A stretch of DNA of 64,000 nt, from assembly GCF_005233835.1 (NCBI RefSeq), contig NZ_SZQA01000015.1, forward strand, positions 1 to 64,000, written 5' to 3'. The DNA comes from Herbidospora galbida (GTDB lineage Bacteria; Actinomycetota; Actinomycetes; Streptosporangiales; Streptosporangiaceae). The position numbers and the translations under genes were made by a program. Within the stretch, counting starts at the first letter, position 1. Each line of letters opens with the position of its first letter. Positions 21,247 to 48,280 of the stretch are shown here, piece by piece. A model generated the notes under the pieces. It was not told the origin of the DNA and did not search any database. It was given only the letters and a program-made list of their open reading frames with translations.

Positions 21247-22245
21247 TTGCGCGTCCTGCTCGCCGCCCTCGCGCTCACCGGCACCCTGAACGGCACCCTG
21301 AACGGCACAGTGCTCGTCGAACGCCCGCCGCCCGTGCAGAACCTCTGGCCCCAGGCCGTCCACGTCATCCCGGCCGTGCTGGCCGACGGCCGGACGCTCA
21401 CCCCTCGCCTCTTCCTCGACGACGACACCCTGCTCGCGACCGCGGCCAAGGGCTTCGAACGGTCGGAGGCGCTGGTGTCGTACAAGCTGACGAACGGGCA
21501 GACCACCGACCTGGCCGAACTCCCCCTGCCGCCCCGGACGGTGGTCCACCCCTCGGGCGTCGCCGCCGGGTCGGGCCACATCGCGTGGTGGACCGCCCGC
21601 CGCGACGGCGCCGGCCGCGTCGGCGAGATCTGGGCGGTGCCGCTCGAAGGCGGCGACCCGGTCGCGATCGCGGCCTTCGCGCTGACGGGAACCGTCACCG
21701 GCCTGGAACTGACGCCTCAGGGGGTCGTGTGGTCGACCGACGCCGGGGGCGTGTGGCGGGTGCCCTACGCGGGCGGCCGGCCTGCCGAGGTGCCCGGCAC
21801 GCAGGGGCAGCACGTGCTGAAGTGGCCGTGGGTGGGGTCGCCCGCCCGCGCGTTCACCACGGCCGTCAACGTCGAGACGGGCGAGCGGCGGGAGACCCGC
21901 CCCGGATCGCTGTGCGGGGTGAACCTGTGCGTGTCCGCCGACCGGCTGGCGTCGGCGCGGTCGGGGGCCGGGATGCGCGCGACCAAGCTGACCGACCCGC
22001 CGGTGTCCCGGCCCGCCCGCGACCGGTTCGTCACGTCGAGCACGATGGCGGGGCCGGGGGAGATCTGGGCGGGGCTCTACGACCTCGTGTCGGGGCAGGT
22101 GGCCGACCTGGGGGTCAAGCCGCTGGCGGCGCGGGGGGTGCAGGCGGGCGGGATCGCGATCCCGGTGCCGGCGGGGGACGACCGGCTGCTGAGCTACCAG
22201 CAGGACGGGCGTCACGTGATCGTCGACCTGTCCAAGATCACCTGA
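21247..22245 (+). CDS. Secreted or membrane-tethered beta-propeller-like protein
   Basis: A 332-residue protein with a short hydrophobic N-terminus (MRVLLAALALTGTLNGT...) and repeated WxxR/GGxxW-type strands (IAWWTARRDG, VVWSTDAGGVWRVPYAGG) that look like beta-propeller blades. The TTG start at 21247 is likely, 3 bp after the previous stop. Two perfect 12-bp units (CGGCACCCTGAA, 21279-21302) plus a partial third encode GTLNGTLNGT in the signal region. Function unknown. Its stop overlaps the convergent helicase gene by 8 bp. Confidence 0.72.
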   Translation: MRVLLAALALTGTLNGTLNGTVLVERPPPVQNLWPQAVHVIPAVLADGRTLTPRLFLDDDTLLATAAKGFERSEALVSYKLTNGQTTDLAELPLPPRTVVHPSGVAAGSGHIAWWTARRDGAGRVGEIWAVPLEGGDPVAIAAFALTGTVTGLELTPQGVVWSTDAGGVWRVPYAGGRPAEVPGTQGQHVLKWPWVGSPARAFTTAVNVETGERRETRPGSLCGVNLCVSADRLASARSGAGMRATKLTDPPVSRPARDRFVTSSTMAGPGEIWAGLYDLVSGQVADLGVKPLAARGVQAGGIAIPVPAGDDRLLSYQQDGRHVIVDLSKIT

Positions 22246-24316
22246 CCACGAGCCGCACCGGTTTCGACAGCACGAAAACGGCAGCCACCGGGTCGGCCAG
22301 ACGGGTGGCGAGCGTGTCGGCGGCGAGTTCCCGCGGCAGCAGTGCAGTGAACTTGAGCCCGTTCAGCGCCCGGTCATCGATCGCCGGTGGCCGAAGCCGG
22401 TCTGCGAGGCCGCGTCGCCAGCCGGTGCCCGTGAGGTCGTTCCTGAGCCGGATGGACAGGTCGTCCACGGGATGGGTCGGGTCGGCCAGCGCGCCGAGGG
22501 TCGCCTTGATCGTGGCGTTGGCCCGGTAACCCGCCCAGGTCCACCAGTGGAGATCTCCGTTCTCTCGCGCGATCACGGTGCCGTCGGGGTGGACGAGGTC
22601 GCGATGCTCGCCGCGGGCCAGCGAAAGCTCACCGGTCGCCCGCCGGGTCAGCCCGACCGGCGGATCGGTGCCGAGGACGACGTCCCGCACGGCTCTGGAC
22701 AGGGCGAAAGAGGTGCCTACCGACTGGGCTCCCGACCAGCGGGCCTTTCCGCCGCCGCCGTCGACGGGGCTGACGAAACAGCGTCGTCGCTTCCAGTCGA
22801 TCCACTCCACCGACCAGGTTCGACCGGCCAGCAGCAGGAGTCGCGAGCCCGGGACGGCGGCGGTCAACAGGGCCGGATCGGTGCGGCCGATCTCGGTGTC
22901 GCCGTTCATGACGGTGAACTCGGGCGGGGCGGTGAACACCGCGGTGAGGTCCATGAAGTTTCGGCGCCCGAACCGTTGCTCCGCTTGGGCGCCGACGTGG
23001 AGGCCTTCGCCGTCCCGTTCGAGATAGCCGTCGCGGATCAGGTGATCGAGGATGGGCTGGGCCGATTCGAACGGAGCGAGCCCTCGCCACCAGTCGATCC
23101 ACAGGGCGTCGCCGATCCGTCCCTCCTGCAGCGTGAGCGCGAGTAGTTGCTGGGCGACGATGTGCCGTGGTTGGGGCGGGGCGTGCAACGGCTCGACGTA
23201 CCCCCTGCTCCACAGGAGCAGCAGCCCCGCCGAGGCGAGCAGGTCGTGCCGGGTCAGCGCCAGCACGAGACAGTTGCGCCGCAGGCCGGCCCGCCGCCCC
23301 GTCCGGCCGAGCCGCTGCAAGAAGGACGCGACCGACCACGGGGCGTTGATCTGGATGACCCGATCGAGGTCCCCGACGTCGATGCCGAGTTCGAGGGTTG
23401 ACGTCGAGACGATGACGCAGTCGCGCGCCTGGGCGAAAGCCTCTTCGGCCCGGCGGCGTTCGTCGGCCGACAGCGACGAGTGGGACAGGAAGGTCGTCAC
23501 GCCCTGGCCCCGGAGCAGCTCACCGAGCTCCTCCACCATCCTGCGCGAGTCGCAGAAGACGAGCCGCTTCTCACCGCCGTGCAGCGCCGCGATGACGCGG
23601 GCCGCGTTGGGAAGGGAACCGACGTAGTCGAGCTCCACGTCGGCGGCGGCAGCGGCCTCCTCGTCCGGGGCGACCACATCCGCGGGGCGGTCGGCCGAGC
23701 CCGAACCCTGAAGCCAGGACATCAGGTCGTGCGGGTTGCCGACGGTCGCCGACAGGCCGACCCTCTGGAGCGGCCGGCCGGCCAGCCGGGTGAGGCGCTC
23801 GAGGACGGCCAGCAGGTGCCATCCTCTGTCGTCTCGGGCGAACGCGTGGACCTCGTCGACTATGACCGTCCGCAGTCCCCCGAACAGGCGGCGGTGGTCG
23901 ACGCCTCGGCTGACGAGCATGGCTTCCAGCGACTCGGGCGTGGTCAGCAGAATGTCGGGCGGATCCCGCAGGATCGCCTGCCGGCGGGACGCCGACACGT
24001 CGCCGTGCCAGAGCCCCACCCTCCTGCCCAGCCAGGCGGCGTATCTCTCCAGCCGGGGTAGCAGGTTGTTGAGCAGGGCCTTCAGCGGGCAGACGTACAG
24101 GACGGTCAGGCCGGTCCAGCCGCGCTCTTCCATCAGGCCGAACAGCGGGAACACCGCCGCCTCGGTCTTGCCGCCCGCCGTGGGCGCGATGAGCAGGGTG
24201 TCGCGGCCCTCGGCGATCGGAGGGGAGGCCTTCTCCTGAAAGGGCCTAAGGCTCGGCCAGCCCATGGTGTTGGTCAGGTGGTAGGCGAGCGTGGGGTGGA
24301 GGGCGGCGGTTCTCAT
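22238..24316 (-). CDS. brxHI: BrxHI-type Lhr-like DEAD/DEAH helicase
   Basis: A 692-residue superfamily 2 helicase of the Lhr-like kind found in BREX type 2 loci as BrxHI. Motifs: APTAGGKT (44-51), DEVH box (154-157), SATVGN, and QRLGRTGRR for motif VI. The C-terminal ~250 residues are the helicase-associated region. It is the last gene of a five-gene operon and overlaps the BrxD-type gene by 4 bp. In known BREX type 2, BrxD and BrxHI accompany pglW/X/Y/Z, none of which is present here. The 5' to 3' order (ATPase then helicase) matches known brxD-brxHI pairs. Confidence 0.87.
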   Translation of the reverse strand: MRTAALHPTLAYHLTNTMGWPSLRPFQEKASPPIAEGRDTLLIAPTAGGKTEAAVFPLFGLMEERGWTGLTVLYVCPLKALLNNLLPRLERYAAWLGRRVGLWHGDVSASRRQAILRDPPDILLTTPESLEAMLVSRGVDHRRLFGGLRTVIVDEVHAFARDDRGWHLLAVLERLTRLAGRPLQRVGLSATVGNPHDLMSWLQGSGSADRPADVVAPDEEAAAAADVELDYVGSLPNAARVIAALHGGEKRLVFCDSRRMVEELGELLRGQGVTTFLSHSSLSADERRRAEEAFAQARDCVIVSTSTLELGIDVGDLDRVIQINAPWSVASFLQRLGRTGRRAGLRRNCLVLALTRHDLLASAGLLLLWSRGYVEPLHAPPQPRHIVAQQLLALTLQEGRIGDALWIDWWRGLAPFESAQPILDHLIRDGYLERDGEGLHVGAQAEQRFGRRNFMDLTAVFTAPPEFTVMNGDTEIGRTDPALLTAAVPGSRLLLLAGRTWSVEWIDWKRRRCFVSPVDGGGGKARWSGAQSVGTSFALSRAVRDVVLGTDPPVGLTRRATGELSLARGEHRDLVHPDGTVIARENGDLHWWTWAGYRANATIKATLGALADPTHPVDDLSIRLRNDLTGTGWRRGLADRLRPPAIDDRALNGLKFTALLPRELAADTLATRLADPVAAVFVLSKPVRLVVR

Positions 24317-25632
24317 GGCAGGTCGAGATCGACGTCGTCGGCCGACACGGCGCGACGACGCTTCTCATAGGCGTTGCGCTCGTCGTCGGTGAGTTCGCTC
24401 GCCACGACGCTGACCTGGCGGTAGTCACGACGCGGGTCGAAGTGCTCGTGTTCGGAGACCCGGTGGAGCACGTCCTGGACGAGCTTGCGGAGGAAGATCC
24501 GGGGCGCGACGCCCGCGCCGAGATGGCCCTCGACCGCACCGGCCAGGTCCTTGATGTAGACGTCGTCGACCCGGTCTCTGATCCGGCGTTCGGCGGGGTC
24601 GCCCCCGGCGTACAAGTCGCGGACGACGCAGCCGAGGGTGACGAGCCTCTCACGGTCGAAACCGGTGAGCCGGATCTGCACCGCGCGAGCGGTGTCGAAG
24701 CGCGGGTCCGTGGTGAAGTCGGTGTGCAGCCGCTGGGCCAGCGGAGTCAGCCGCTGGACGCCGAGCTGGCCGTCGTAGAAGGCGGGCGTGCCCGTGACGA
24801 CCAGGTAGAGCCCCGGGAAGCGGCCCTTGTCGATCTCGTCGATGAGCTGGCGCAGGGCGTTGAGGCCCCGGTCGCGATAGTCGCTGCGGACCTTTTGGAG
24901 GGTCTCGACCTCATCGAGTACGACCAGCAGCCCGGGATGGCCGCAGTCGCGCAGCACCGTCAGCAGTCCTTGAAGGAAGTGGAGGGCTGTGGCTCCGTCG
25001 ACGTCGCCCTTGAGACCCGCGTAACGGCGGACGGTGGCGGAGACGTTCGGTTCGCCGCTCACCCAGGCGAGCAGGCCATCGGCGGTCGCCTGGTCGCCCG
25101 TCATCAGGGCTCGCCGGTAAAAGCGCAGTGCTGCCGAGAACGCCGGGGCGTTTCTGGCGGTCGCGGCCAGGCGGGTCTCGATCAGCTCCTCTACCGCCGC
25201 CGACAGCTTCCTCCTGTCACCCCTGGCGACCCCGGTGTCGTCTTCGAGCGTGAGCAGCCAGGTGTCGACGATGTCCCGCAGTGCGCTGGGCCGGATGGAT
25301 GCCGTGCTCAGGCTGCCGACCATGGATCGGTAGACCGTGTCGAGCCGGTGCAGCGGAGTGCGCTCCGATATCTGGATCTCGCTGGCCGCCATCTTCTTCC
25401 GCTTGGCCTTCTCGGCCAGCCAGCGCGCGAAGAACGTCTTCCCCGAGCCGTATTCCCCGCGGATCGCCTTGAAACCCGCGCCTCCGGCGGTGACCGCGGT
25501 CAGGTCGTCGTCGAGTGCCCGCTCGAAGCGGTCCATGCCGACCGCGAACAGGTCGAGCCCCACGCTGGGCACGGTCCCCCGGCCTAGCGCGTCGATGATC
25601 TGCCGCCGCCTGGCACGGCTGACCTTGGTCAC
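24313..25632 (-). CDS. brxD: BREX-type ATP-binding protein BrxD
   Basis: A 439-residue AAA-type ATPase of the BrxD (DUF2791) family. Walker A is GEYGSGKT (59-66), Walker B LLVVLDEVETL, and the C-terminal half keeps the family's GFDRERLVTLG and APRIFLRKLVQDVL sequences. BrxD is known from BREX type 2 systems, where it pairs with the BrxHI helicase; here that helicase is the next gene (4-bp overlap). It is coupled upstream to the pseudokinase gene (4-bp overlap), so it is likely to work in a complex with it. Confidence 0.9.
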   Translation of the reverse strand: MTKVSRARRRQIIDALGRGTVPSVGLDLFAVGMDRFERALDDDLTAVTAGGAGFKAIRGEYGSGKTFFARWLAEKAKRKKMAASEIQISERTPLHRLDTVYRSMVGSLSTASIRPSALRDIVDTWLLTLEDDTGVARGDRRKLSAAVEELIETRLAATARNAPAFSAALRFYRRALMTGDQATADGLLAWVSGEPNVSATVRRYAGLKGDVDGATALHFLQGLLTVLRDCGHPGLLVVLDEVETLQKVRSDYRDRGLNALRQLIDEIDKGRFPGLYLVVTGTPAFYDGQLGVQRLTPLAQRLHTDFTTDPRFDTARAVQIRLTGFDRERLVTLGCVVRDLYAGGDPAERRIRDRVDDVYIKDLAGAVEGHLGAGVAPRIFLRKLVQDVLHRVSEHEHFDPRRDYRQVSVVASELTDDERNAYEKRRRAVSADDVDLDLP

Positions 25633-26930
25633 GGTTCGTCCTCCTCGAGAAACTGTTCTTCCAGCAGCGGCACGTTCAGTACGACCGTGCGGTCGTTGTC
25701 CTTCAGCGTGATCACTTCGGTCTGTTCGACGTTGAGCAGGCCCCTGACCGAACGGAGCAGCATGACCATCCGGCTGGGCTCCTCACCGAGCAGCCGGGCG
25801 AGATCCGCGACCGAGGCCCGGCCATTGCCGTCCGCCACATGGGTGACGAGAAAGGCGACGGTTACGTCATCGACGGGGGTGCGGGGCGCCAGCTCTCGCT
25901 GCTCGGCGTAGACAGGGGAGTCGATCACCCGTCGGCCCAATGATTCGGCGGGTACCGACAGGTCGGGGGATTCCTCGGCAACCGGTTCCACGACTACCGC
26001 GTACTCGTCTTCCTCGACATCGAGAATTTCGAACTCGAAGATTTCTGGCTCCGAGTCCTCAGGGTCCCGAGTCACGAAGACGAGATTCTCGGATTCCGGA
26101 TCTTCCGGTACGGAATCCGAAAGCACCCCGGCCCGCACGCCGCCGAGTAGAGGACGGGAAACCGCGATGCGTTTGCGGCCGGACAAAGACTGCAGCCATT
26201 CGGACGCCGCAGGGCGGCCGCCACGCGGGCCACCGGCACGGGCGAACATCTCGCTGACCGCAGAAGACACCCGATCGGGGAATCCGGGATCGAGGAAGAG
26301 CGGCTCACCTGGTCGTACGGCGGGGTCTCCGGACAGTGTCCGGCCGATGAGGAGTGCGAGGCGATAGCGGTCGGTGTCGAAGTCCGGGCCGGTCGGCGGT
26401 TGCCACGGATCGTCCACGCTGGAAATCCCGGTTGGCCGCACCACGGGTTCCGCGCCGTGCCTGCGCAGCCCGTCGCAGCCCACCAGGAAGATCTCGCCGT
26501 GCCTCCAGAGGATCTTGTGAATCGACAGGTTCCCGACGATCCAGCCCTTGCCGTGCAGGTGGAGAACGAGCTCGGCGGCCTGGACGGCGAAATCATGCCG
26601 GGTGGCGAGGTCAAGTTCCGCGCCGACCGTGCGATGGAATCCTCCGGCTGCTTCACGCATCAGGAAACCGGTCACCTGGTCTCCGTCGACCACTCTCGCC
26701 ATCGGCCAGGAGCAGCGGGACCGCAGCTCCGGGTCACGGTGCCCCGACTCGACGAGATCGGCCAAAGCGGTGCCGTTCACCCGGCCGGCCCGTGGCGCGT
26801 ACTCCTTGTAGAGGAGCTTCTCCCCGCCCTCCAGACGTGTGATGACACCGCTGGTGCCATGACCGAGCGGCGTGGACCCGAGGGCCAGCGTGGCGCGCTC
26901 GCGGTCGAGAGCATGTGGACGGAAGGCCAT
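25629..26930 (-). CDS. Pseudokinase with acidic linker and PglZ-like C-terminal tail
   Basis: A 433-residue protein in three parts. Residues 15-260 follow a protein-kinase fold: glycine-rich loop GHGTSG (23-28) and the ATP-anchoring Lys (K42 in LLYKEY). The catalytic loop, however, reads VGNLSIHKIL (132-141) and the DFG equivalent reads GCDG (151-154), so catalytic Asp, Asn and probably the Mg-binding Asp are missing. Residues ~270-335 are an Asp/Glu-rich linker. The last ~90 residues resemble a winged helix with LLNVEQ...VVLNVPLLEEQF, the same style of ending as BREX-2 PglZ proteins (my recollection of that family). Start follows the previous stop directly (TGAATG). Probably a regulator or scaffold linking the membrane pair to BrxD. 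Confidence 0.7.
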   Translation of the reverse strand: MAFRPHALDRERATLALGSTPLGHGTSGVITRLEGGEKLLYKEYAPRAGRVNGTALADLVESGHRDPELRSRCSWPMARVVDGDQVTGFLMREAAGGFHRTVGAELDLATRHDFAVQAAELVLHLHGKGWIVGNLSIHKILWRHGEIFLVGCDGLRRHGAEPVVRPTGISSVDDPWQPPTGPDFDTDRYRLALLIGRTLSGDPAVRPGEPLFLDPGFPDRVSSAVSEMFARAGGPRGGRPAASEWLQSLSGRKRIAVSRPLLGGVRAGVLSDSVPEDPESENLVFVTRDPEDSEPEIFEFEILDVEEDEYAVVVEPVAEESPDLSVPAESLGRRVIDSPVYAEQRELAPRTPVDDVTVAFLVTHVADGNGRASVADLARLLGEEPSRMVMLLRSVRGLLNVEQTEVITLKDNDRTVVLNVPLLEEQFLEEDEP

Positions 26931-27461
26931 TCACGCACTCTTCTTGGCGGGCGCGCAGCCGCCGGAGACGAAGTAGACCTCCATGGAGACCGATCCGCTT
27001 GGCGCGGAGAGGTCGTGGAAATTGCGGGTCGCCGCTCTTTCAAAGACGCGCGGAAGCGCCTTACGGGCGGCGGCGTTGACCCGGGTGGCCAGGTGCACAC
27101 CGTCGCCCGCCCCTCCGTCGGCGCCGAAGGTGAGGACCATGCCCGCGTTACGCCCGGCGAGGCGCTTGCGGTGCTTGCGCAGCTCCCGTTTCACCTGCCC
27201 GAGAAGCTGTGGCTCCGAGGATCCGGGGTTCACCCGGAACGAGAGTTTCGTGGGCTTGGCCGCCACACCCGCTGCCCGGCTCGAGCAGGGGGACGGGCTC
27301 GGCGAGGGGCTGCTCTTCCCGGCGGCCGGTTTGGCCGGTACGGGTGGGGGAGCCTGCGCCCCCAGCATGATGATCGTCAGCCCCAGCAGCAGGTCGGCGA
27401 ACAGCCAGCCGGCCAGGAGCACCAGCGGGGCGGGCTTGGCGCTGCGGCGTGCGGGCGTCAT
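26931..27461 (-). CDS. MotB/ZorB-like single-TM protein
   Basis: A 176-residue protein: short basic N-terminus, one membrane helix (about 13-35) of the form GWLFADLLLGLTIIML with Asp23 inside it, a Pro/Ser-rich linker (40-60), and a ~100-residue alpha/beta domain outside the membrane. The F-A-D-(L/F) pattern at the start of the helix is the proton-carrying signature of MotB, ExbD and ZorB; the outer domain is only weakly OmpA-like, so its peptidoglycan binding is uncertain. The ATG overlaps the stop of the upstream two-TM gene by 4 bp, as MotA/MotB or ZorA/ZorB pairs often are. The Asp and topology are seen; the motor role is inferred. Confidence 0.65.
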   Translation of the reverse strand: MTPARRSAKPAPLVLLAGWLFADLLLGLTIIMLGAQAPPPVPAKPAAGKSSPSPSPSPCSSRAAGVAAKPTKLSFRVNPGSSEPQLLGQVKRELRKHRKRLAGRNAGMVLTFGADGGAGDGVHLATRVNAAARKALPRVFERAATRNFHDLSAPSGSVSMEVYFVSGGCAPAKKSA

Positions 27462-28885
27462 CCTGCAGCCCGCTCTCCACCCGTCCCGGCCGCCACTGCG
27501 GTGGCCGCTTGGAGCACCGCGTTCTCCAGACGTCCGATGGCGTCGCGCAGTTCGGCGACGTCGAGGCCGGTGACGTCCCGGACGGCCATGGGGATCTCTC
27601 TGAGCGCGGTGGTGAGGTCGTTCGGGAGCCGGTCCATCGCGTCCCGGGCGTCTTCGAGCAGCTGCGCGGTGCGGCCCGCCGTGTCGGCGACCAGTTCGAT
27701 CCGGGAGGCGTGTGCGCTGGCGGTGGAGGCCCAGTCGTCCAAGGCCTCCCGCACCTCGGTGCCGGCGGCGCCGAGGGTCCCGTTGGTCTCCGCCAGGACA
27801 TGGCTGATGCGGTCTCCGCTCTCGGCCGCGGCCGTCTCGACCCGGCCGACGGCGGTTCCGATCGCGAGGGTGGCGCCCACCAGTTCGCCGACCCGGGTGT
27901 TCAGGCCCGTGGTGCTCTCGCGCACCGATTTCTCGGTCGCGCTCGTCAGGTTGTCGATCGACCTCTGAACGCCGTTGGTGCTCTCGGCGAGCACACTGCC
28001 TAGGCGTTCGCCGACGCGGCCGACGGCCTCGTCGGTCTTCTCGCCGATGGCGTCGATGGCGTAAGCGGTCCGGTCGACGGACGCCTTGAGCGATTCGGCC
28101 GCGGCCGTCACCGCGGTGAGGTGCTTCTCGACGGTCGCCATCGAGTCGCGGGTCTGCGCGACTCCGGCCGTGAGAGCATCCGTGGCCTGGTCCGTCGCCC
28201 CCAGGGCGGTGCTGAGGGCCTCCACCACCTGCGTGTGGAGCTTGCCGATGGTCTTGCCGACCTTGTTCAGGTCGGCCGCGCCTTTGGAAAGTTCTGCCTG
28301 GAACCGGGCCGGGGAGCTCAGCCGCACCTGGTTGAGGATCAGGGACGCCTCGGTCAGAGCGGCCCGCAGACGCGATCGCAGCGCGGCCGCCTCGTCGATG
28401 GCGCGGTCTTCGGCCTGCCGGCGCTTGACCCGTTCGGTGATGGTGATGGCGACGACGGCCGCGATCGCGATGAGAGTCCCGATCGCGATGTTGTCGAAAC
28501 GCCACCAGACGCTCAGACGGCCGTCGAAGCCTTGCTGCCACATCTCAAGGAATGGCCTGCGCGCTGCCTCGACCCCGCCCGCGGCCAGCGTTTCCCCGTA
28601 TGCGGTGGTCGCCACCTTGAGTCCCAACCAGGTGACGACGATGGGGAGGAAGATGATGACCGACTGGATCCAGTCCAGCTTCTTGAGGAACCGGGAGTCG
28701 GCCGGAAAGTCCTGCACCGAGTCGGCGGGGTCGAATGCCGCGAAAAGGTCCAGGTCGCACCACCGTTCGCCCTGCGCGGGCTCGACGACCGCCTCCGCCA
28801 GGTCGCGCAACTGCCGGGCCCGGGAATCGAGGCCGGGTAGATCGGCGAGCGCGCGGAGTTCGGCGGCAAGCTCCTGGTCCGTCAC
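27458..28885 (-). CDS. Two-TM protein with long coiled-coil tail (ZorA-like)
   Basis: A 475-residue protein that starts with GTG at 28885. Residues 1-70 are soluble; membrane segments are at about 72-92 and 131-150; residues 155-460 form a long alanine-, threonine- and glutamate-rich coiled coil similar in look to methyl-accepting chemotaxis proteins. A two- or three-TM protein with a long cytoplasmic rod beside a MotB-like partner is the architecture of ZorA in Zorya defence. Sequence identity to ZorA or MotA is not apparent by eye, so this rests on architecture and neighbours. First gene of the five-gene minus-strand operon. Confidence 0.62.
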   Translation of the reverse strand: MTDQELAAELRALADLPGLDSRARQLRDLAEAVVEPAQGERWCDLDLFAAFDPADSVQDFPADSRFLKKLDWIQSVIIFLPIVVTWLGLKVATTAYGETLAAGGVEAARRPFLEMWQQGFDGRLSVWWRFDNIAIGTLIAIAAVVAITITERVKRRQAEDRAIDEAAALRSRLRAALTEASLILNQVRLSSPARFQAELSKGAADLNKVGKTIGKLHTQVVEALSTALGATDQATDALTAGVAQTRDSMATVEKHLTAVTAAAESLKASVDRTAYAIDAIGEKTDEAVGRVGERLGSVLAESTNGVQRSIDNLTSATEKSVRESTTGLNTRVGELVGATLAIGTAVGRVETAAAESGDRISHVLAETNGTLGAAGTEVREALDDWASTASAHASRIELVADTAGRTAQLLEDARDAMDRLPNDLTTALREIPMAVRDVTGLDVAELRDAIGRLENAVLQAATAVAAGTGGERAAG

Positions 28886-29020: not shown

Positions 29021-29659
29021 TCATTTGGTCAGAGAGACTTCTACTCCGTCAGAGAAGATCGAGTCGTGTAGCTCGACCGACTTCAGGGTGATGTTCCTCG
29101 GGACGTCGAACAGCAGGATGCCCTTGACGGAGTTGCCGGGGTTGATGCTGTTCAGGAAGCTGTTGGAGTTTTTCAGGCCAAGCGCGGCGGCCCCTGAGTC
29201 GGCGTCGAACTGGCGGCCCTTCTTGTCGACGAGCTTCTGGGACGAGTCGCTGAACATCTGTGACTCGGTGCCGATGTTCTTCACCGTCACGTGGATCAGC
29301 ACGTACTGCCCCTGCGCCTCCGAGACGAGGAAGCCCTCGCCCACCTGGGCAAGGCCCTTCTCGACCTTCGTCACCTTGAAGGCGAAGTCGCCGTCTCTGA
29401 CGGTGTCGCCGATGCCCGCGGTTTTCGGCTCCTCCGGTTCCGCGTCTGCCTCGGTCTCCTCCGCAGGTCCCTCTGCGGCGGGATCGGCCATTGTCGCGGT
29501 GCCGGCGCCCTCGGGTTCGGCGCCGCCGTTGACGATCGCGCCCACGACGGTCAAGCCCATGAGGACGGCGGCTCCGACAAGGACCGCCTTCAGGCAGCCG
29601 CCTCCCTTCTTCTGGACGATCACGGTCTGCGGGTAGGGCTGCGGGTGATTGTTGTACAC
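29021..29659 (-). CDS. DUF4352-type membrane-anchored protein
   Basis: A 212-residue protein with a Pro/Gln-rich cytoplasmic N-terminus, one membrane helix (CLKAVLVGAAVLMGLTVVGAIV), an acidic linker, and an extracytoplasmic beta-sandwich domain of the DUF4352 type (GDTVRDGDFAFKVTKVE..., VLIHVTVKNIGTESQMF). The family is frequent on actinomycete surfaces and of unknown function. GTG at 29659 has GGAG upstream. It lies between the two divergent defence operons, 135 bp upstream of the ZorA-like gene and on the same strand, so it could be co-transcribed with it. Confidence 0.78.
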   Translation of the reverse strand: MYNNHPQPYPQTVIVQKKGGGCLKAVLVGAAVLMGLTVVGAIVNGGAEPEGAGTATMADPAAEGPAEETEADAEPEEPKTAGIGDTVRDGDFAFKVTKVEKGLAQVGEGFLVSEAQGQYVLIHVTVKNIGTESQMFSDSSQKLVDKKGRQFDADSGAAALGLKNSNSFLNSINPGNSVKGILLFDVPRNITLKSVELHDSIFSDGVEVSLTK

Positions 29660-29742
29660 GGGGGGCTCCGAGCGACTCGCGGTGTGTAGGTGGCGCAAAT
29701 TAGAGCAGACTGTGAACCGAGTGCACAACTCTTTCTCTGCTC

Positions 29743-29772
29743 TGGACAACCTACAAAAAGGTGGCGTAGATT
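29743..29772 (+). promoter_or_regulatory. Candidate sigma-70-type promoter for the DISARM operon
   Basis: TGGACA (29743-29748) and TAGATT (29767-29772) with an 18-bp spacer, in a less GC-rich leader, 113 bp before the drmD GTG. No operator palindrome was recognised in the 225-bp divergent region. Confidence 0.35.
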
Positions 29773-29884
29773 CCACCGCACGCCGTTCCGGGCGAAAACG
29801 ATCTGGATCGTTCCGCCGGGCTGCCAAACTGTCGCGAAGCAGCGGACCCCCAGCCCCCACCGATGCCGTTGGCGAGGAGAGAAC

Positions 29885-32800
29885 GTGACGAGTGCGACGT
29901 CGGACAAACCCGCCATCGGAGCCCTGGTCGCGGTTCGCGGGCAGCGCTGGGTGGTGAGCGATGTCGAGGCGGGCGCGTCCAGCACGCTGGTGAGCCTGCA
30001 GAGCGTCGAAGAGGGGCGATACGGCCACACGCTCGACGTGATCTGGGAAGTCGAACCCGGGAGCAGGGTCCTGCCCGGCGGCTCACTACCTGAGGTGACC
30101 GCGTTCGACCCGCCCGCGCGGCTGGCGGCGTTCCTCGACGCGATCCGATGGTCGGCCGTCACCTCCGCCGACGTGAAGATGTTGCAGGCGCCGTTCCGGT
30201 CAGGCGTCGCTCTCGAGGACTACCAGCTTGAGCCGGTCGCCCGCGCGGTCGAGGCGCCCAGGGTCAACCTCCTGCTCGCCGACGACGTCGGTCTCGGCAA
30301 GACCATCGAGGCGGGCCTGGTCGCGCAGGAACTCCTGCTGACGCAGCGCGCCCGGCGGATCATGGTGGTCTGCCCGGCGGGGCTGACGCTGAAATGGAAA
30401 GACGAGATGGCCGAGAAGTTCGGCCTCGACTTCACCATCATCGACACGGAGCGCTGCGCGATTGTTCGCCGCACCCACGGAAGCGCGGCCAACCCCTTCG
30501 AGATCCACCCGCTGACCATCGTCAGCCTCCCCTGGCTGCGAGGGCGGAAAGCGCAGCGGCTGCTCGACGAAATGCTCGACCCCACCGGCGAGAAGCGCGC
30601 CTTCGACCTGCTCATCCTCGACGAGGCACACCACGTCGCCCCGGCCGCTCCCAAACAGGTGTACGCCGTCGACTCCCAGCAGACGAAGCTCATCCGCAGG
30701 CTGTCTCCCCACTTCACCCACCGGCTGTTCCTGTCCGCCACTCCCCACAACGGCTACCAGGCGTCGTTCACCGCGCTGCTGGAGACTCTCGACGACCAGC
30801 GGTTCGCCCGCGGGATCGAGCCCGACTCCGCCGCGCTCACCGATGTCGTCGTGCGACGACTGAAGCGGGACATCAAGAACGCCGACGGTTCCGAGAGGTT
30901 CCGCCGCCGTGAAGCTCACGCGATGCCCGTTCTCTATCCGGCCGACGAGCGGGAGATCCACGAGCTCCTCAAAGAGTTCGCCGAGGTGCGGCGCAGGCGC
31001 CTGACCAAGCAGCGCGGCCGCAAAGCGGCCGACCTCGTGACCCTGCTGCTCAAGAAGCGGCTCTTCTCCAGCCCGGCTGCGTTCCTTCACACGGTCGGCG
31101 TCTACCTCGAAACCGTGAAGGGCAGGGCTGCCGACACCTTCGACGAGTCCGACGACGTCCCCGAATGGCTGGAGGAGTTCGCCGACTACACGGCTTCGCT
31201 CGACGACGAGTCACTCGCCGAGGCCGAAGACGACGCGGTCAACCGCGCCCACCCCCTGCAGGAAGGCGCGACCCGGCAGGAGGTCGAGCTCTTGGAGCGC
31301 ATGCAGCAATGGGCGAAGAAGCACGCCGTCCGGCCTGACGCCAAGGCGCGGGAGCTCATCACCTATCTCAAGGCCGTCTGCCGCCCCGACACGCACTGGG
31401 AGAACGAGCGCGTCGTGGTGTTCACCGAATACCGCGACACCCAGACCTGGCTGGCCGGCCTGCTGACGCAGGAAGGTCTCGGCGGCGACCGGCTGAACCT
31501 GCTCCACGGCGGCATGTCCACCGAAGAGCGCGAACAGGTGCGGCAGGCCTTTCAGAAGGACCCCGCCGAATACGACGTGCGGATTCTCATCGCCACCGAC
31601 GCGGCGGGGGAAGGCATCGACCTGCAGAACCACTGCCACCGGCTGGTCAACTACGACATCCCGTTCAACCCCAACAAGCTCGAACAGCGCATCGGCCGCG
31701 TCGACCGCTACGGCCAGCGGCACACTCCGGACATCCGCCACTTCATCGGCACCGGCTGGACCACCGCCGTCGACTCCTATGAGGCCGACCTGGAGTTCCT
31801 CGCCCGCATCGCCGAGAAGGTGGCCCGGCAGCAGAAGGACCTCGGTCCGGTCAATGCGGTCATCTCCGAGCGGGTCCAGCGCCGCATGCTCGGCGAAGAC
31901 GTCGGCCTCGACGACGTCGATCGCGTCGCCCCCACCGAGGACGTACCCGTCGAGACCGACATCGGCGCACAGGTCAAAAAGCTCCGCGCGCGGCTCGACG
32001 AGACCGTCGGCGAGCTGCGGATCACCCCCGGGAACATCAAACGGGTGGTCGACACAGCCCTCGACCTGGCCAGACAGCAGCCGCTCAAGCCCCACCTCGA
32101 CGAGAAGCACCTCACCGAAGGGCTCTTCGAGGTGCCGACGCTGACCGCGTCGTGGGAACGGGCCTCGGCCGGACTGCTCGAGAAGATCACCAAAGACGGC
32201 GCCCCGCCGAAACAGCGCCCGGTGACCTTCGACCCGGCCGCTCTCACCGAGTTGCGCGACGACGTCGTGCTCGCCCACCTCAACCACCCGCTGGTCGCCA
32301 TGTCGACCCGGCTCCTGCGCGCCGCGGTCTCCAACCCCGACATCGGTCTCAACCGGGTGACCGCTGTGATCAGCGACGATCCCGCCCTGGAGACCACACT
32401 GATCGGCGCCTATGCCAGATTCGTCCTGGTCGGCGGCGACGGGATGCGGCTGCACGAAGAGGTCATCTACGCCGGCGGCTGGGCCCAGCAGAGCGGCCGG
32501 TTCCGCCGCCTCGACGCCCAGGGCACCCTCAGCGGCATCCTCGACCGGGGCCTGAACCAGGGACTGCCCGCATCTCCCCACCTGCACCGGCGGCTGGCCG
32601 AGGTCTGGGGCCGGATGCGGCCCGGCCTGGTCGACGCGATCGAGGCGCGCATGCGCACCCGTCGCGACTCGCTCGACAACGCGCTGGCTAAACGCCAGGA
32701 AGCCGAGCTGAACCGCATCGCGGCCAACTTCGACCGGTTCGCGGCCACCCTGCGCGCCACCCTGGCCGCCGGTGAAGAGGACGACGGCCTGTTCTCGGTC

Positions 32801-32998
32801 ATCGAGGCGACCAAAGACGAGCAGGAGATCCGCCAGTATCTGAAGGACCGCGACTCGTGGCAGGCCCGCCTCGACCGGCTCGACGAGGAGAGGCGGCGCG
32901 AGCAGGAAGCCGTCGCGGCCCGCTACCGCGACTTCAAGGAACACCTTTTCCCCGTAGCCGTGATCTTCGTCGTTCCCAGGCAGGAGGCCTCCCGATGA
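29885..32998 (+). CDS. drmD: DISARM SNF2-like helicase DrmD
   Basis: A 1037-residue SNF2-family helicase, first gene of a class 1 DISARM locus. Motifs: DDVGLGKT (133-140), LILDEAHHV near residue 246, LSATPHNGY, and the C-terminal helicase part VVFTEYRDTQTWL with QRIGRVDRYGQ. Size and N-terminal extension match DrmD. DISARM restricts incoming phage DNA; DrmD is the class 1-specific component. GTG at 29885 follows GAGGAG. It overlaps drmMI by 4 bp. Confidence 0.93.
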   Translation: MTSATSDKPAIGALVAVRGQRWVVSDVEAGASSTLVSLQSVEEGRYGHTLDVIWEVEPGSRVLPGGSLPEVTAFDPPARLAAFLDAIRWSAVTSADVKMLQAPFRSGVALEDYQLEPVARAVEAPRVNLLLADDVGLGKTIEAGLVAQELLLTQRARRIMVVCPAGLTLKWKDEMAEKFGLDFTIIDTERCAIVRRTHGSAANPFEIHPLTIVSLPWLRGRKAQRLLDEMLDPTGEKRAFDLLILDEAHHVAPAAPKQVYAVDSQQTKLIRRLSPHFTHRLFLSATPHNGYQASFTALLETLDDQRFARGIEPDSAALTDVVVRRLKRDIKNADGSERFRRREAHAMPVLYPADEREIHELLKEFAEVRRRRLTKQRGRKAADLVTLLLKKRLFSSPAAFLHTVGVYLETVKGRAADTFDESDDVPEWLEEFADYTASLDDESLAEAEDDAVNRAHPLQEGATRQEVELLERMQQWAKKHAVRPDAKARELITYLKAVCRPDTHWENERVVVFTEYRDTQTWLAGLLTQEGLGGDRLNLLHGGMSTEEREQVRQAFQKDPAEYDVRILIATDAAGEGIDLQNHCHRLVNYDIPFNPNKLEQRIGRVDRYGQRHTPDIRHFIGTGWTTAVDSYEADLEFLARIAEKVARQQKDLGPVNAVISERVQRRMLGEDVGLDDVDRVAPTEDVPVETDIGAQVKKLRARLDETVGELRITPGNIKRVVDTALDLARQQPLKPHLDEKHLTEGLFEVPTLTASWERASAGLLEKITKDGAPPKQRPVTFDPAALTELRDDVVLAHLNHPLVAMSTRLLRAAVSNPDIGLNRVTAVISDDPALETTLIGAYARFVLVGGDGMRLHEEVIYAGGWAQQSGRFRRLDAQGTLSGILDRGLNQGLPASPHLHRRLAEVWGRMRPGLVDAIEARMRTRRDSLDNALAKRQEAELNRIAANFDRFAATLRATLAAGEEDDGLFSVIEATKDEQEIRQYLKDRDSWQARLDRLDEERRREQEAVAARYRDFKEHLFPVAVIFVVPRQEASR

Positions 32999-35900
32999 GC
33001 CAGGCCGGTTGGCGCAAGCAGCCCGACGCGTCCCGCGTGCACCAAGACTGGCTGAGCCTCGTCGAGGTCTCCGGCCCGTTCCTCTCCCTGCCCGTGCTCC
33101 GGCGCACCTGGCCGTCGCTCGACCCCCTGGACAAGGCCGCCCGCGAGCGGCTGCGCCTCGAACACGGCACCTGGCAGGCGGGTGGGCTTTCCGGCGACTG
33201 GATCCTGTACGTACTGCGCCACCTCCTCGGCTGGGAGGAGGCCCTGCACACGACCGGGCTCGACACCTTCAGCCTGGAGGTCCCTCAACACGACACCTGG
33301 CTGACGTCCGACTTCGCCCTGGTCACACCGGGTGAGGAAGCCAAGCCGGGCACGGTCCGGCTGCTCGGCCTGATCAGCGACGACCGCCCGACCGCCCGCG
33401 TCAAGGGAGACGCCTGGGCCGCGACCACCGTCGACCGCCTCGCCCAGCTCTGCCGCCACCACGACGTCGAACTCGGCCTGGCCACGGACGGCCGCTGGTG
33501 GACTCTCGTGTGGGCCCCGCGCGGTGGTGTCACAACGAGCGCCACCTTCGACGCCATCTCCTGGCCCGAGGCCGCGGAGCGCGATGTCGTGCGCGCGTTC
33601 GTCTCCCTGCTGGGCCGGGCCCGCTTCTTCTCCTATCCCGACGACGAGACCCTGGTCGCCCTCCTCAAGTCGAGCAAGGACAACCAGGAGGACATCACCG
33701 AGGCGCTGGGTGTCCAGGTCCGCCAGGCGGTCGAACTGCTGGTGGCGGCCATCGGCCGGGCCGGCATCCGCGACCGCGAGGCGGGCGGCCCGGGCATCGA
33801 CGACGTCGAGGCCCACGACGTCTACCGGGGCGCGGTGACCGTCATGATGCGCATCGTCTTCGTCCTCTTCGCCGAAGAACGCGGGTTGCTGCCGTCGGAC
33901 AACGAGCTCTACGCCACCGCCTACTCGGCCGGGGGCCTGTGCGCGGAACTGGAGCAGCGCGCACTGGAAGGCAGCGAGAACGACCTGGAGCAGACCCAGG
34001 CGGCCTGGCACCGGCTGCTTGCTCTCTTCAATGCCGTGTACGCCGGCATCGACCATCCCCGCCTGAAGATGCATGCCCACGACGGCTCCATGTTCGACCC
34101 CGACGTGTATGCGTGGCTACCGCTGTCGATCGACGACCGGACCGTGCTGCACATGCTCAAAGCGGTCCAGTACGTGCAGATCGGGACCCGAAAGACGGGG
34201 GAGCGGCGCAAGCTCAGCTTCCGGGAACTCGACGTCGAGCAGATCGGCTACGTCTACGAGGGCCTGCTGTCCTATGAGGGGCGCCGCGCCACCGACACCG
34301 TTCTCGGGCTGGTCGGAAAGTCCGGCCTGGAGGAAGAGGTCAGTCTTTCCGACCTGCAGAGACTCGCGGCCCAGTCGGGTGGGGAACTGGCCGCGAGGCT
34401 GGCGGAGAAGTACAAGTCCTCCGGCATCGGCACGGCCTCGGCCGTCGCCAAGCGCCTGGCGCCCCTGTCGAGCGCCGAGCGCGTCGAGGCGCTGCGCAAG
34501 CTGCTGGCCGTGACGGTGGGTGATCGTGATCTGGCCGAGCAGGTGCTGCCCTTCTACGGCATTCTCCGCCACGACCTGCGCGAACTGCCCGTGGTCATCC
34601 TCAACGGGGCGCTCTATGTGACCGAGTCGGCGCTGCGGAAGAACACCGGAACCCACTACACGCCGCGCGACCTTGCCGAGCAGGTGGTCGAAGGGGCGCT
34701 GGAGCCGCTGGTCTACCGGGTCGGGCCGCTCCAGACGGCTGACCGGTCGAAGTGGGAGCCGAAATCGAGCGAGGAGATCCTGGCGCTCAAAGTCGCCGAC
34801 ATCGCCATGGGCTCGGCGGCGTTCCTGGTCGCCGCCGCGCGCTACCTGAGCCGGCATCTCGTGGAGGCGTGGTCACGGGAAGAAGACCCCCGTGCGGTTG
34901 CCTATCGGGCGGCCGGTTCAGCTTCTGGTACGGGAGATGCGGACCAGGACCCAGTAGTCGTCGAGGCCATCCGCCAGATCATCGAACACTGCCTTTACGG
35001 AGTGGACATCAATCCGATGGCGGTGGAGATGGCCAAACTGTCGCTCTGGCTCGTGTCGATGGACCGCGAACGTCCCTTCACCTTCCTCGACGACCGGTTG
35101 GTCGCGGGGGATTCGCTGCTGGGGATCACCTCGCTCGACCAACTCGAGGTCATGCACATGAACCCGAAGCGAGGGCGAGAGATCCACGAGGAGCGGGGGC
35201 TGCTTAACTTTGCCGTCGGAGCGCGGGCTGTGGTCCGCGAAGTCGCGCAGCAACGCCGGAAATTGGCGGCCATTCAACTAGGGAATAACCCTCTGGCGGC
35301 ATTAGACAAGAAGCGGAGCATCTTGGCGGATGCAGAACTGAAGACATCGCAGGCGCGGTTGTTCGCCGATCTGACGGTGGGTGCGGTTCTCGCGCACGTG
35401 AGCAGAGGAGACGTTGGGCTTCGTGATGGCTCAATCAATGCAGCAGATTACGTTCGTCGCATCACCAACGGTTCGGTTGGCGCAGAAGTGGAGGCTCGTC
35501 AACAGCGGAATGAATGGCTCAACAAGGACCATGTGCCAGGCACTTTCTTTCGCCGACCGGTTCAGTGGCCGCTAGTGTTTCCGGAAGTTTTTACAGATAG
35601 TGCTGGTGAATACTCAAATGCGGCCGGATTTGACGCCATTGTCGGCAACCCGCCATTTTTGGGTGGGCAAAAACTCACTGGTGCTATGGGTGTGGCCTAT
35701 CGAGAATACCTTGTTGAAATAATTGGGCAAGGTGCTCGCGGGAGTGCAGATCTGGTGGCATACTTCACGCTCTGTGCTCACGAATTGCTTAATTCTGACG
35801 GGCAGGTGGGAATCATTGCGACGAATACTCTTGCGCAGGGTGACACCCGGCAGGTCGGTCTCGATCAGCTTGTATCGAAAGGGATCACTATCCGACGGTC

Positions 35901-37056
35901 CATCAAGAGTTCGCCTTGGCCCTCGAAAAGTGCCGTCCTCGAGTACTGTGCTGTATGGACGAGCCGTCGGGCTCTGGCAGAGGAGGCGGAACGCCTTGCT
36001 GGCGGTATTGCAGTGGCAGGTATCACTCCGTCGCTAGACCCCGAATCCAGGGTAATCGGAAACCCGAAGCGACTCATAGCCAATGAGGGCATATGTTTTC
36101 AAGGCTCTGTGGTTCTTGGCTTGGGATTTGTAATGGAGCCTGAGGCGGCCGGTATGCTAGTTGAGGAAGACTCAAGGAATGTCCAGGTTTTGTCTCCATA
36201 TCTAAGTGGACAGGATCTAAATGCGCGTCCTGATAGCTCCAATAGTCGATGGGTAGTCAATTTTCGAGATTGGCCCTTGAGTCGCGCTCAAACCTATCCG
36301 GGTCCCTACTTTAGAGTTCTAGAGCTCGTAAAGCCCGAGCGTGACAAGAATAATCGAAAAGTTTACCGCGACTTCTGGTGGCAATTTGGCGAGAAGCGGC
36401 CAGCAATGTTGAGGAAGATTTCAGGGCTTGAGCGGGTTATCGTGATAGTGCTCCACACGAAAATCGTCATGCCTGCAATGGTTCCAACTGGTAGCGTTTT
36501 TTCGCACGGCCTCGGCATTTTTGCCACTGACGATACGGCAGTTCTCGCGTTGCTGTCCGCTGCTCCCCACTACTGGTGGACTCTCACGCGAGCGTCGACC
36601 TTGGAGACCAGGGTTCGCTACACGCCCTCGGATGTCTTTGAAACCTTGCCGCTCCCCGAGCTTACGGAGGAGATGCGGAATCTCGGTGATCAGCTCGACG
36701 CTTTTCGCCGGAACCTAATGCTCTCTCGGCAGGTAGGTCTGACCTCCACATACAACATGGTGAACTCCTCCGCGAATACCGATGAGGACATCATCGGGCT
36801 GCGCCGAATCCATCGTGCCATCGACGAGGCCGTCTGTCGGGCTTACGGCTGGGATGACCTGATCGACAATCTCGACCATGGCCATCACCCTGTTGGCCGA
36901 GAGATCCGCTACACGGTCGGCCCTGCCGTGCAACGGGAGTTCGTCGACCGGCTTCTTGAACTCAACCATCAGCGCTATGCCGACGAAGTCGCCCGCGGCC
37001 TGCATGACAAGGCCAAGAAGAGGGCCAAGCGCGCCGACGACGAAACCCTGTTCTGA
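32995..37056 (+). CDS. drmMI: DISARM adenine methyltransferase DrmMI
   Basis: A 1353-residue Eco57I/BREX-PglX-like N6-adenine methyltransferase that marks host DNA in class 1 DISARM. SAM-binding motif DIAMGSAAFLV near residue 602, GVDINPMAVEMAKLSLW near 669, catalytic NPPF at 885-888. The first ~735 residues and the last ~105 are in normal high-GC sequence. The part between (about 35200-36740, residues ~740-1245), holding the NPPF motif and the likely target-recognition region, is strikingly lower in GC with ordinary-looking A/T-ending codons and a rare TTA Leu codon at 35302. This suggests a recombined specificity segment. Frame is intact throughout. Confidence 0.92.
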   Translation: MSQAGWRKQPDASRVHQDWLSLVEVSGPFLSLPVLRRTWPSLDPLDKAARERLRLEHGTWQAGGLSGDWILYVLRHLLGWEEALHTTGLDTFSLEVPQHDTWLTSDFALVTPGEEAKPGTVRLLGLISDDRPTARVKGDAWAATTVDRLAQLCRHHDVELGLATDGRWWTLVWAPRGGVTTSATFDAISWPEAAERDVVRAFVSLLGRARFFSYPDDETLVALLKSSKDNQEDITEALGVQVRQAVELLVAAIGRAGIRDREAGGPGIDDVEAHDVYRGAVTVMMRIVFVLFAEERGLLPSDNELYATAYSAGGLCAELEQRALEGSENDLEQTQAAWHRLLALFNAVYAGIDHPRLKMHAHDGSMFDPDVYAWLPLSIDDRTVLHMLKAVQYVQIGTRKTGERRKLSFRELDVEQIGYVYEGLLSYEGRRATDTVLGLVGKSGLEEEVSLSDLQRLAAQSGGELAARLAEKYKSSGIGTASAVAKRLAPLSSAERVEALRKLLAVTVGDRDLAEQVLPFYGILRHDLRELPVVILNGALYVTESALRKNTGTHYTPRDLAEQVVEGALEPLVYRVGPLQTADRSKWEPKSSEEILALKVADIAMGSAAFLVAAARYLSRHLVEAWSREEDPRAVAYRAAGSASGTGDADQDPVVVEAIRQIIEHCLYGVDINPMAVEMAKLSLWLVSMDRERPFTFLDDRLVAGDSLLGITSLDQLEVMHMNPKRGREIHEERGLLNFAVGARAVVREVAQQRRKLAAIQLGNNPLAALDKKRSILADAELKTSQARLFADLTVGAVLAHVSRGDVGLRDGSINAADYVRRITNGSVGAEVEARQQRNEWLNKDHVPGTFFRRPVQWPLVFPEVFTDSAGEYSNAAGFDAIVGNPPFLGGQKLTGAMGVAYREYLVEIIGQGARGSADLVAYFTLCAHELLNSDGQVGIIATNTLAQGDTRQVGLDQLVSKGITIRRSIKSSPWPSKSAVLEYCAVWTSRRALAEEAERLAGGIAVAGITPSLDPESRVIGNPKRLIANEGICFQGSVVLGLGFVMEPEAAGMLVEEDSRNVQVLSPYLSGQDLNARPDSSNSRWVVNFRDWPLSRAQTYPGPYFRVLELVKPERDKNNRKVYRDFWWQFGEKRPAMLRKISGLERVIVIVLHTKIVMPAMVPTGSVFSHGLGIFATDDTAVLALLSAAPHYWWTLTRASTLETRVRYTPSDVFETLPLPELTEEMRNLGDQLDAFRRNLMLSRQVGLTSTYNMVNSSANTDEDIIGLRRIHRAIDEAVCRAYGWDDLIDNLDHGHHPVGREIRYTVGPAVQREFVDRLLELNHQRYADEVARGLHDKAKKRAKRADDETLF
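35200..36740 (+). other. Low-GC mosaic segment inside drmMI
   Basis: By direct count one line (36121-36180) is 30/60 G+C, while a flanking line in the same gene (33421-33480) is 44/60. The transition is abrupt at both ends and stays in frame. It covers the catalytic NPPF and the C-terminal region expected to read the target sequence. Confidence 0.75.
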
Positions 37057-37113
37057 TGTCCGCGATCCCACCCCCCGTCCTTGCCGGATCACCACCGAGG
37101 AACCGCCGACCTC

Positions 37114-42794: not shown

Positions 42795-43573
42795 CGCGGC
42801 GTTCGCGCTTCACCGAGGCCGTGGCTGCGGCAGCCGCCACGATGGGGCCGTCCCGGTTGCGTGTCCTGGCCGACCGGATCGCCGACGGACGGCCTAGGAG
42901 CGCGATCCCCGGGGCGCTGCCGGTGCCGGGCTTCGCCGACGCGGCGCGGGACGTGCTGGCCGCGATCGAGGCGGAGTCCATACCCGATGTCGAGGCGGTC
43001 GCCTATCTGAGGGGAGTGGCCGACGGGCATGCCCAGCACGCCGGGGCCATCAGGGTCGAGCCGGTCTGGAGCGGACCGGGTAGCCATTCAGTCCCGGTGC
43101 GGGCGACCGCGCAGGTGCTGGTGGATCTGGTCGCCGAGGCGGTCCAAGAGCTGGTGCTGATGACCTATTCGGCCAAACCGTACGCTCCTTTGCTGGAGGC
43201 CCTGCGCACGGCGGTCCGGCGGGGCGTCTCGGTGATCGCGGTGGTCGAAACCCTCCAAGGGGCCGGTTCCGCCTTGGGCGGTGCCGAGCCGGCGGCGGCG
43301 TTCCTGACCGTGCCCGGAGTCGAGCTGTGGCACTGGCCTGCCGCCCACCGGGCCGGACCCGGTGAGGCGGATGGGAAAGGTGCGAAGATGCACGCCAAAC
43401 TGGCCGTGGCGGACCGGCGGGTGCTGCTGGTGTCCAGCGCCAACCTGACTCAGTCGGGAGTGGCCAGGAACATCGAGGCAGGACTGCTGGTGCACGGCGG
43501 GGCCGCGCCGCAGCGCGCGGCCGAGCACGTCGCCGAGCTACGGGCCAGAGGCGTGCTCGAACGGCTCCGCTAG
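42791..43573 (+). CDS. drmC: DISARM phospholipase-D-type protein DrmC
   Basis: A 260-residue PLD-superfamily protein. One HKD-like motif is visible near residue 200: HAKLAVADRRVLLVSSANLT. PLD nucleases of this kind work as dimers of one motif each. In described DISARM loci DrmC is present but not strictly required for protection. GTG start overlaps the drmB stop. It ends 16 bp before the next gene. Confidence 0.9.
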   Translation: MTRRSRFTEAVAAAAATMGPSRLRVLADRIADGRPRSAIPGALPVPGFADAARDVLAAIEAESIPDVEAVAYLRGVADGHAQHAGAIRVEPVWSGPGSHSVPVRATAQVLVDLVAEAVQELVLMTYSAKPYAPLLEALRTAVRRGVSVIAVVETLQGAGSALGGAEPAAAFLTVPGVELWHWPAAHRAGPGEADGKGAKMHAKLAVADRRVLLVSSANLTQSGVARNIEAGLLVHGGAAPQRAAEHVAELRARGVLERLR

Positions 43574-43589
43574 GGGAGAGAGGTATGTG

Positions 43590-46612: not shown

Positions 46613-46734
46613 GCCGTCATTCCGGGTTGCCGCCCAATATTCGCGAGGCATGAGGGAATTCTAGGGAGATTTCCGTTTCGTGGCTGGTGTAACTTCTCGG
46701 AGGAACGCGGATTCGGGCATGGAGGGCGGTCGGT

Positions 46735-48279: not shown

Positions 48280-48280
48280 A

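Follow-up and report, generated by a model that had tools for sequence, protein, structure and literature searches.

A candidate defence operon in Herbidospora galbida that joins BrxD and BrxHI to a MotB-like membrane pair and a kinase-fold protein

BREX type 2 (Pgl) is composed of PglW, PglX, PglY, PglZ, BrxD and BrxHI, and Zorya of ZorA and ZorB with ZorC/D, ZorE or ZorF/G. To our knowledge, BrxD and BrxHI are known only from defence systems. Type-2 PglZ terminates in a three-stranded winged helix, according to PMC12839542, which elsewhere calls the role of BrxD uncharacterized and notes its pairing with BrxHI. For Zorya, sections of PMC11890865 place an Asp at position 24 or 21 of ZorB, and describe a ring of serines and threonines in ZorA together with a cytoplasmic extension that is required for defence. 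In actinobacteria, as passages of PMC7159879 report, other conflict systems have genes for a kinase, a PP2C phosphatase and a VWA protein linked to them, so that this triad can be regarded as a known portable part.

The operon described here lies in the window, meaning the whole stretch of 64,000 nucleotides from Herbidospora galbida that was analysed. Five ORFs follow one another on the minus strand between 22238 and 28885 (Table 1). Their junctions, taken from the ORF list and the start region of the fourth gene, are -4, 0, -4 and -4, in agreement with an earlier note on this DNA that had read five tightly packed genes with junctions of 4, 0, 4 and 4 bp. BrxD matches its PADLOC profile with 600 bits over residues 1–437, and Pfam PF10923 with 443 bits; BrxHI matches its PADLOC profile with 1003 bits over residues 4–689. 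These near full-length matches bear out the names the two proteins had been given. When the whole genome was searched with PF10923 (the BrxC/BrxD family), the operon BrxD was the one match above the cut-off. All four of PglW, PglX, PglY and PglZ had been thought absent. Among the five proteins there is indeed no match to PglW, PglX or PglY (Pfam, PADLOC) and no PglZ core, and a full BREX-2 system was rejected on these grounds, but the C-terminal domain of PglZ is present on the kinase-like protein. The stated absence of ZorC, ZorD and ZorE agrees with the searches, which returned none of these, nor ZorF or ZorG, for the five proteins (PADLOC; for BrxHI, among the best 25 of 84 families). For the five proteins, Pfam and PADLOC gave no match to a TerB domain, to SngA or to a nuclease domain, the matches to Cas3-type models covering only their helicase parts.

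Table 1. Genes and domains of the operon and the gene just upstream, in window coordinates
Feature	Coordinates	Strand	Length	Remarks
DUF4352 protein	29021..29668	-		Pfam 97 bits; just upstream of the ZorA-like gene; 29668 not tied to a start codon
ZorA-like membrane protein	27458..28885	-	475 aa	Predicted membrane helices ~66-84 and ~132-150; 316-residue tail
MotB-like protein	26931..27461	-	176 aa	ATG at 27461; one predicted membrane helix, Asp23
Kinase-like protein, putative adaptor (pseudokinase), with C-terminal winged helix	25629..26930	-	433 aa
Adaptor C-terminal domain	25641..25976	-		Residues ~319-430; homologous to the type-2 PglZ C-terminal winged helix
BrxD, AAA+ ATPase, BrxC/BrxD family	24313..25632	-	439 aa	Walker motifs intact
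BrxHI, superfamily-2 helicase	22238..24316	-	692 aa	Helicase motifs intact

The MotB-like protein, as a three-row alignment, served to search one genome per species for relatives; 80 of 117 relatives were taken further, and their loci were sorted by tblastn. A kinase with the winged helix stands together with BrxD and BrxHI at 12 of the 80, and these, with the window, are referred to below as the 13 cassette loci. The genera are Microbispora, Sphaerisporangium, Spongiactinospora, Planotetraspora, Actinomadura and Herbidospora. Eleven of the 12 have a seven-gene form: the membrane pair is followed by genes for a VWA protein and a PP2C phosphatase, and these by a kinase whose catalytic residues are conserved. 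Only in the window and in Herbidospora daliensis (L036), both of them without VWA and PP2C, is the five-gene form seen. The order of the five genes recurs across genera, with or without two extra genes, which goes beyond chance, and the pair and kinase do occur with BrxD and BrxHI elsewhere, two points on which the earlier note had made its grouping depend; the idea of a unique five-gene set was rejected, since all 12 loci have the five- or the seven-gene form. The remainder of the 80 comprises 36 loci where the MotB-like gene adjoins VWA and kinase but BrxD/BrxHI is not attached, three with VWA only, at contig ends, and 29 where neither a VWA nor a kinase match lies in place (tblastn, E 1e-4, two kinase queries and one VWA query), three of which also lack a ZorA-like match. 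At one of the 36 (L060) a BrxD/BrxHI pair lies upstream, and its BrxD groups with the PglZ-adjacent BrxD. Over the phylum, the three-row alignment matched at least 2 of 396 genomes, the window's own included, a figure that is no gauge of frequency, as about nine candidates per genome were scored. No plasmid copies of the MotB-like or kinase-like protein were found.

The cassettes are compact, with junctions of -13 to 32 bp where every gene could be placed, and in 10 of the 12 the kinase gene and brxD overlap by 4 bp. PP2C was recognized from open frames between VWA and kinase at 10 of the 11 seven-gene loci and established separately at the eleventh; the protein of L046 has a Pfam PP2C match. 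All 11 VWA proteins carry the DxSxS metal motif, and 10 PP2C proteins (L037 left out) carry Asp-Gly pairs. A DEAH pattern was matched in BrxHI of 12 of the 13 cassette copies, L039 being the exception to the pattern used. Seven Streptosporangium loci (L040, L044, L049-L052, L109) have the membrane pair with no adjoining VWA, kinase or BrxD match; two of them (L040, L044) are placed among the cassette copies in the MotB tree, which suggests loss.

A further link to BREX type 2 is the C-terminal end of the kinase-like protein. Its residues 312–428 match positions 790–906 of the 910 in the PADLOC PglZ profile (E 2.8e-24), and only these, so that the phosphatase core is missing. The domain and the C-terminal domain of type-2 PglZ are homologous. 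A search of 60 relatives found the winged helix in 10 further genomes, where the bearer is PglZ in 10/10; brxD follows directly in nine and lies about 5 kb off in L031. In a profile search of the phylum, at least 9 of 396 genomes were matched, the window's own included, which is no measure of frequency because 11 candidates per genome were scored; all nine places outside the window lie on PglZ. Over the 19 other winged-helix loci that were compared (L008, L012, L024-L031 and L119-L127, where L119 repeats L028), brxD comes immediately after PglZ in 16; in L126 the distance is no more than about 800 bp, in L031 it is that already given, and at L123 brxD was not seen. Because the bearer of the winged helix mostly stands directly before brxD, we infer that winged helix, BrxD and BrxHI form one docking unit. 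A second setting with just these three parts suggests a single exchangeable unit, and makes the interaction of BrxD, BrxHI and winged helix directly testable apart from the remaining BREX genes.

The rest of the kinase-like protein gives no Pfam match, but its AlphaFold2 model is a protein-kinase fold (Foldseek, best E 2.6e-8; mean pLDDT 83.2), followed by a stretch of pLDDT below 50 (residues 263–318) and, set apart, a C-terminal domain built of helices and strands. In the window's protein the alignment shows the catalytic Asp replaced. This Asp, the Asn next to it and the DCD motif are kept in 47 of 49 aligned kinases; the two altered copies are those of the window and H. daliensis, which are also the two without VWA and PP2C. 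With these residues lost, phosphotransfer by the window's protein is unlikely and an adaptor role more likely, so that of the pseudokinase signalling proposed from the letters, the degenerate kinase stands and the signalling would be that of an adaptor. Toward five outlying copies the window's kinase domain is 45–50% identical and that of Microbispora rosea 52–59%, the gap being smaller for BrxD; the kinase domain has changed faster in the window's lineage.

Trees place the cassette in one line of descent. The 13 cassette BrxD, the window's included, are split with support 100 from 15 others (eight from the BREX-2 loci L024-L031, six adjoining PglZ, and one from L060), and on this sampling form a single clade. 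In the MotB tree, which took in 9 of the 13 cassette copies, these nine and two Streptosporangium copies are split from the other 41, again with support 100. When the 13 copies were joined in one alignment, the window and H. daliensis clustered with Microbispora and Planotetraspora against the others (support 100). Provided that the root lies outside this Microbispora/Planotetraspora/Herbidospora group, the five-gene set would be a derived reduction of the seven-gene set with VWA and PP2C rather than the basic form. The losses of VWA, PP2C and kinase residues represent a single event in two near-identical copies. The Herbidospora pair offers a natural test of the need for kinase activity. In H. 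daliensis, VWA and PP2C acting from elsewhere were rejected, the genome having no match to either query at E 0.001. Elsewhere in the window's genome, at about 92047-94686 of contig C39 (L116, L117), a VWA and a PP2C gene stand together, their products 32–36% identical to the proteins of the seven-gene operon, and in this genome a partner in trans may exist.

The membrane pair can be compared with Zorya mainly by its anatomy. Asp23 of the MotB-like protein lies inside the predicted membrane helix (12–34 in the model), as had been noted, and the membrane Asp is found in 51/51 MotB-like sequences that have a residue at that column (one has a gap), in a GWLFAD setting in 50 of the 51. The model (mean pLDDT 87.5) ends in a beta-alpha-beta-alpha-beta-beta domain, a topology compatible with an OmpA-like peptidoglycan-binding domain; its best Foldseek match has E 1.2e-3, with OmpA-like chains mixed among other folds. 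Two membrane helices are predicted in 31 of 33 ZorA-like relatives and three in the other two, and the alignment has Pro81 in 33/33 and Thr85 in 97%. The window's ZorA-like tail has 3 prolines in 316 residues, which fits the rod-like partner of the earlier note. A sequence link of the pair to MotAB, ZorAB or ExbBD was not obtained from PADLOC, Pfam or PDB profiles, all matches being confined to the tail or chance-like: the PADLOC ZorA matches all fall in the coiled-coil tail, none of them beginning before residue 205, and among the PDB profile matches listed for the ZorA-like protein all begin at model position 188 or later, also in the tail. With hhalign, the MotB-like protein against MotB, the MotB side being built from 18 of 30 MotB loci, gave E 0.0055–0.02 at a probability of 2.4–6.6%, and four control comparisons gave 0.046–0.37. 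The proposed likeness to Zorya accordingly holds for the Asp and the tail but finds no counterpart in ZorA profile matches to the membrane part; the pair resembles the Zorya motor in anatomy and is a candidate member only.

The surroundings are rich in defence genes. PADLOC matches to DrmD, DrmMI, DrmA, DrmB and DrmC extend over 29690-43573 on the opposite strand, divergent from the operon, and are taken here to be a class 1 DISARM set; beyond them, 43587-50539 holds an N6 DNA methylase, two Ser/Thr kinases and a protein with a GmrSD N-terminal domain. The operon might be an accessory to the adjoining DISARM-like or methylase system, supplying helicase loading much as BrxD and BrxHI accompany PglX in BREX-2. 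DISARM is divergently adjoining in the window and L036, DrmD/DrmMI are present in L048, and DrmD-like helicases lie close to the operon in L039 and L042, the latter also with a methylase protein. This amounts at best to 5 of the 13 cassette loci, however, and at the remaining loci a tblastn search of the sequence read, with the DISARM proteins of the window as queries, gave no neighbour of this kind, which makes the accessory role quite unlikely. Quite another reading is that the membrane pair, VWA, PP2C and kinase are a housekeeping module for envelope-stress signalling, to which BrxD and BrxHI were attached secondarily. It draws on the 36 of the 80 loci that have pair, VWA and kinase with no attached BrxD/BrxHI, some of which (L072, L089, L108 and others) lie near genes that look, by reading, like housekeeping genes. 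Such neighbours recur at 6–8 of the 36, in a count that wrongly took L041 as a locus without BrxHI, and suggest a fixed chromosomal role. In several relatives as well as in the window, on the other hand, the form with BrxD and BrxHI is found among defence genes, and these two proteins are not known from outside defence systems; for the operon as a whole the reading is improbable. In 7 of the 13 cassette loci (the window and six others; the sequence of L045 is too short) a DUF4352 gene precedes the operon in the same orientation, and its product may be an accessory part. An ADP-ribosylglycohydrolase-like gene, named by reading, stands between the DUF4352 and ZorA-like genes in L037, L038, L043, L046 and L054; it was not seen at the matching place in the window.

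The likeliest of the alternatives is a phosphorylation relay, in which kinase and PP2C reversibly control BrxD/BrxHI or the membrane tail with VWA as adaptor, the window's copy being a functionless, decaying remnant. The motifs kept in the VWA and PP2C proteins and the kept kinase residues would be expected of such a relay. Within the window's lineage, the faster-evolving kinase domain points the same way, as does a pN/pS of 0.90 (7 changes) for the kinase-like gene against H. daliensis, which fits decay as well. Against a remnant, all five reading frames are unbroken in both the window and H. daliensis, and the motifs of BrxD and BrxHI are intact. The same comparison gives a pN/pS of 0.07 for the ZorA-like gene (6 changes), 0.27 for BrxD (7) and 0.38 for BrxHI (20), on few changes each, and zero changes were counted in the MotB-like gene. 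The relay, together with a decaying window copy, is therefore considered unlikely.

The preferred explanation, with a probability of roughly 0.5, is that the operon is a composite phage-defence system that signals from a membrane sensor through a kinase-fold adaptor to BrxD and BrxHI. It is favoured by the recurring gene order, the 4 bp overlap of kinase and brxD, the BrxD clade and the homology with the PglZ domain; by the conservation of Asp23, Pro81 and Thr85, the intact helicase and ATPase motifs and the low pN/pS values; and by the loss of catalytic residues only together with VWA and PP2C, and the defence-island setting. It is weakened by the want of a sequence link for the membrane pair, of a nuclease domain and of more than one loss event, by the value of 0.90 for the kinase-like gene, and by the 36 loci without BrxD/BrxHI. 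Starting from the gene content, conservation, domain homology, single BrxD clade and joint loss that are observed, the steps of sensing, coupling, docking, loading and defence are proposed as follows. The membrane pair, which resembles the ion-driven ZorAB and MotAB motors, would sense a disturbance of the envelope or membrane potential at phage entry, and a conformational change would be relayed along the long cytoplasmic tail of the ZorA-like protein to the adaptor. The C-terminal winged helix, carried by PglZ in BREX type 2, would then dock BrxD, which would load the BrxHI helicase onto incoming DNA. VWA, PP2C and a catalytic kinase would add an optional phosphorylation switch in the seven-gene form, and in the Herbidospora window this switch would be gone and the adaptor retained. 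A further claim is advanced tentatively, at a little short of even odds: the operon would represent a defence system in its own right, with an ion-driven membrane motor in direct control of how the helicase is loaded on DNA. The connection would be a portable docking unit transferred to a kinase-fold adaptor and, in Herbidospora, would be purely conformational.

As a whole, the gene set matches no named system in PADLOC 2023, and it is undescribed in the literature searched, which was mostly open-access, with few subscription papers and with preprints only via PubMed Central; the main text of PMC12839542 has no occurrence of TerY, PP2C, Zorya or Shango. The earlier note, which knew of no described system with these genes, is upheld to that extent. 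Parts of several systems are nevertheless recognizable. Shango (SngA, SngB, SngC) is approached by BrxD and BrxHI, which match SngB and SngC at 118 and 372 bits, but the BrxD and BrxHI profiles score far above these. The TerY-P triad, as outlined in sections of PMC11090510, has VWA, PP2C and kinase in the same order as the seven-gene relatives, and its genes stand together in 11 of the 12 cassette relatives, being incomplete in the window and H. daliensis (VWA and PP2C absent); the kinase here, however, ends in a PglZ-type winged helix instead of the zinc ribbon or OB fold given in those sections. Zorya shares a B subunit whose membrane helix bears an Asp near residue 23, an A subunit with a long tail, and DNA-handling proteins after the pair, but the A subunit of the operon has two predicted membrane helices, and its membrane part gave no significant match by sequence. 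The operon further suggests that DNA-handling outputs of more than one kind may be driven by membrane sensing of the Zorya type. With BREX type 2 the operon has in common adjacent BrxD and BrxHI, preceded by a protein with the same C-terminal winged helix, and it differs in that the winged helix is on a kinase fold, a membrane pair heads the operon, and BrxD forms a clade of its own. All of the modules have described relatives or look-alikes, and the novelty lies in their combination and in the docking unit only.
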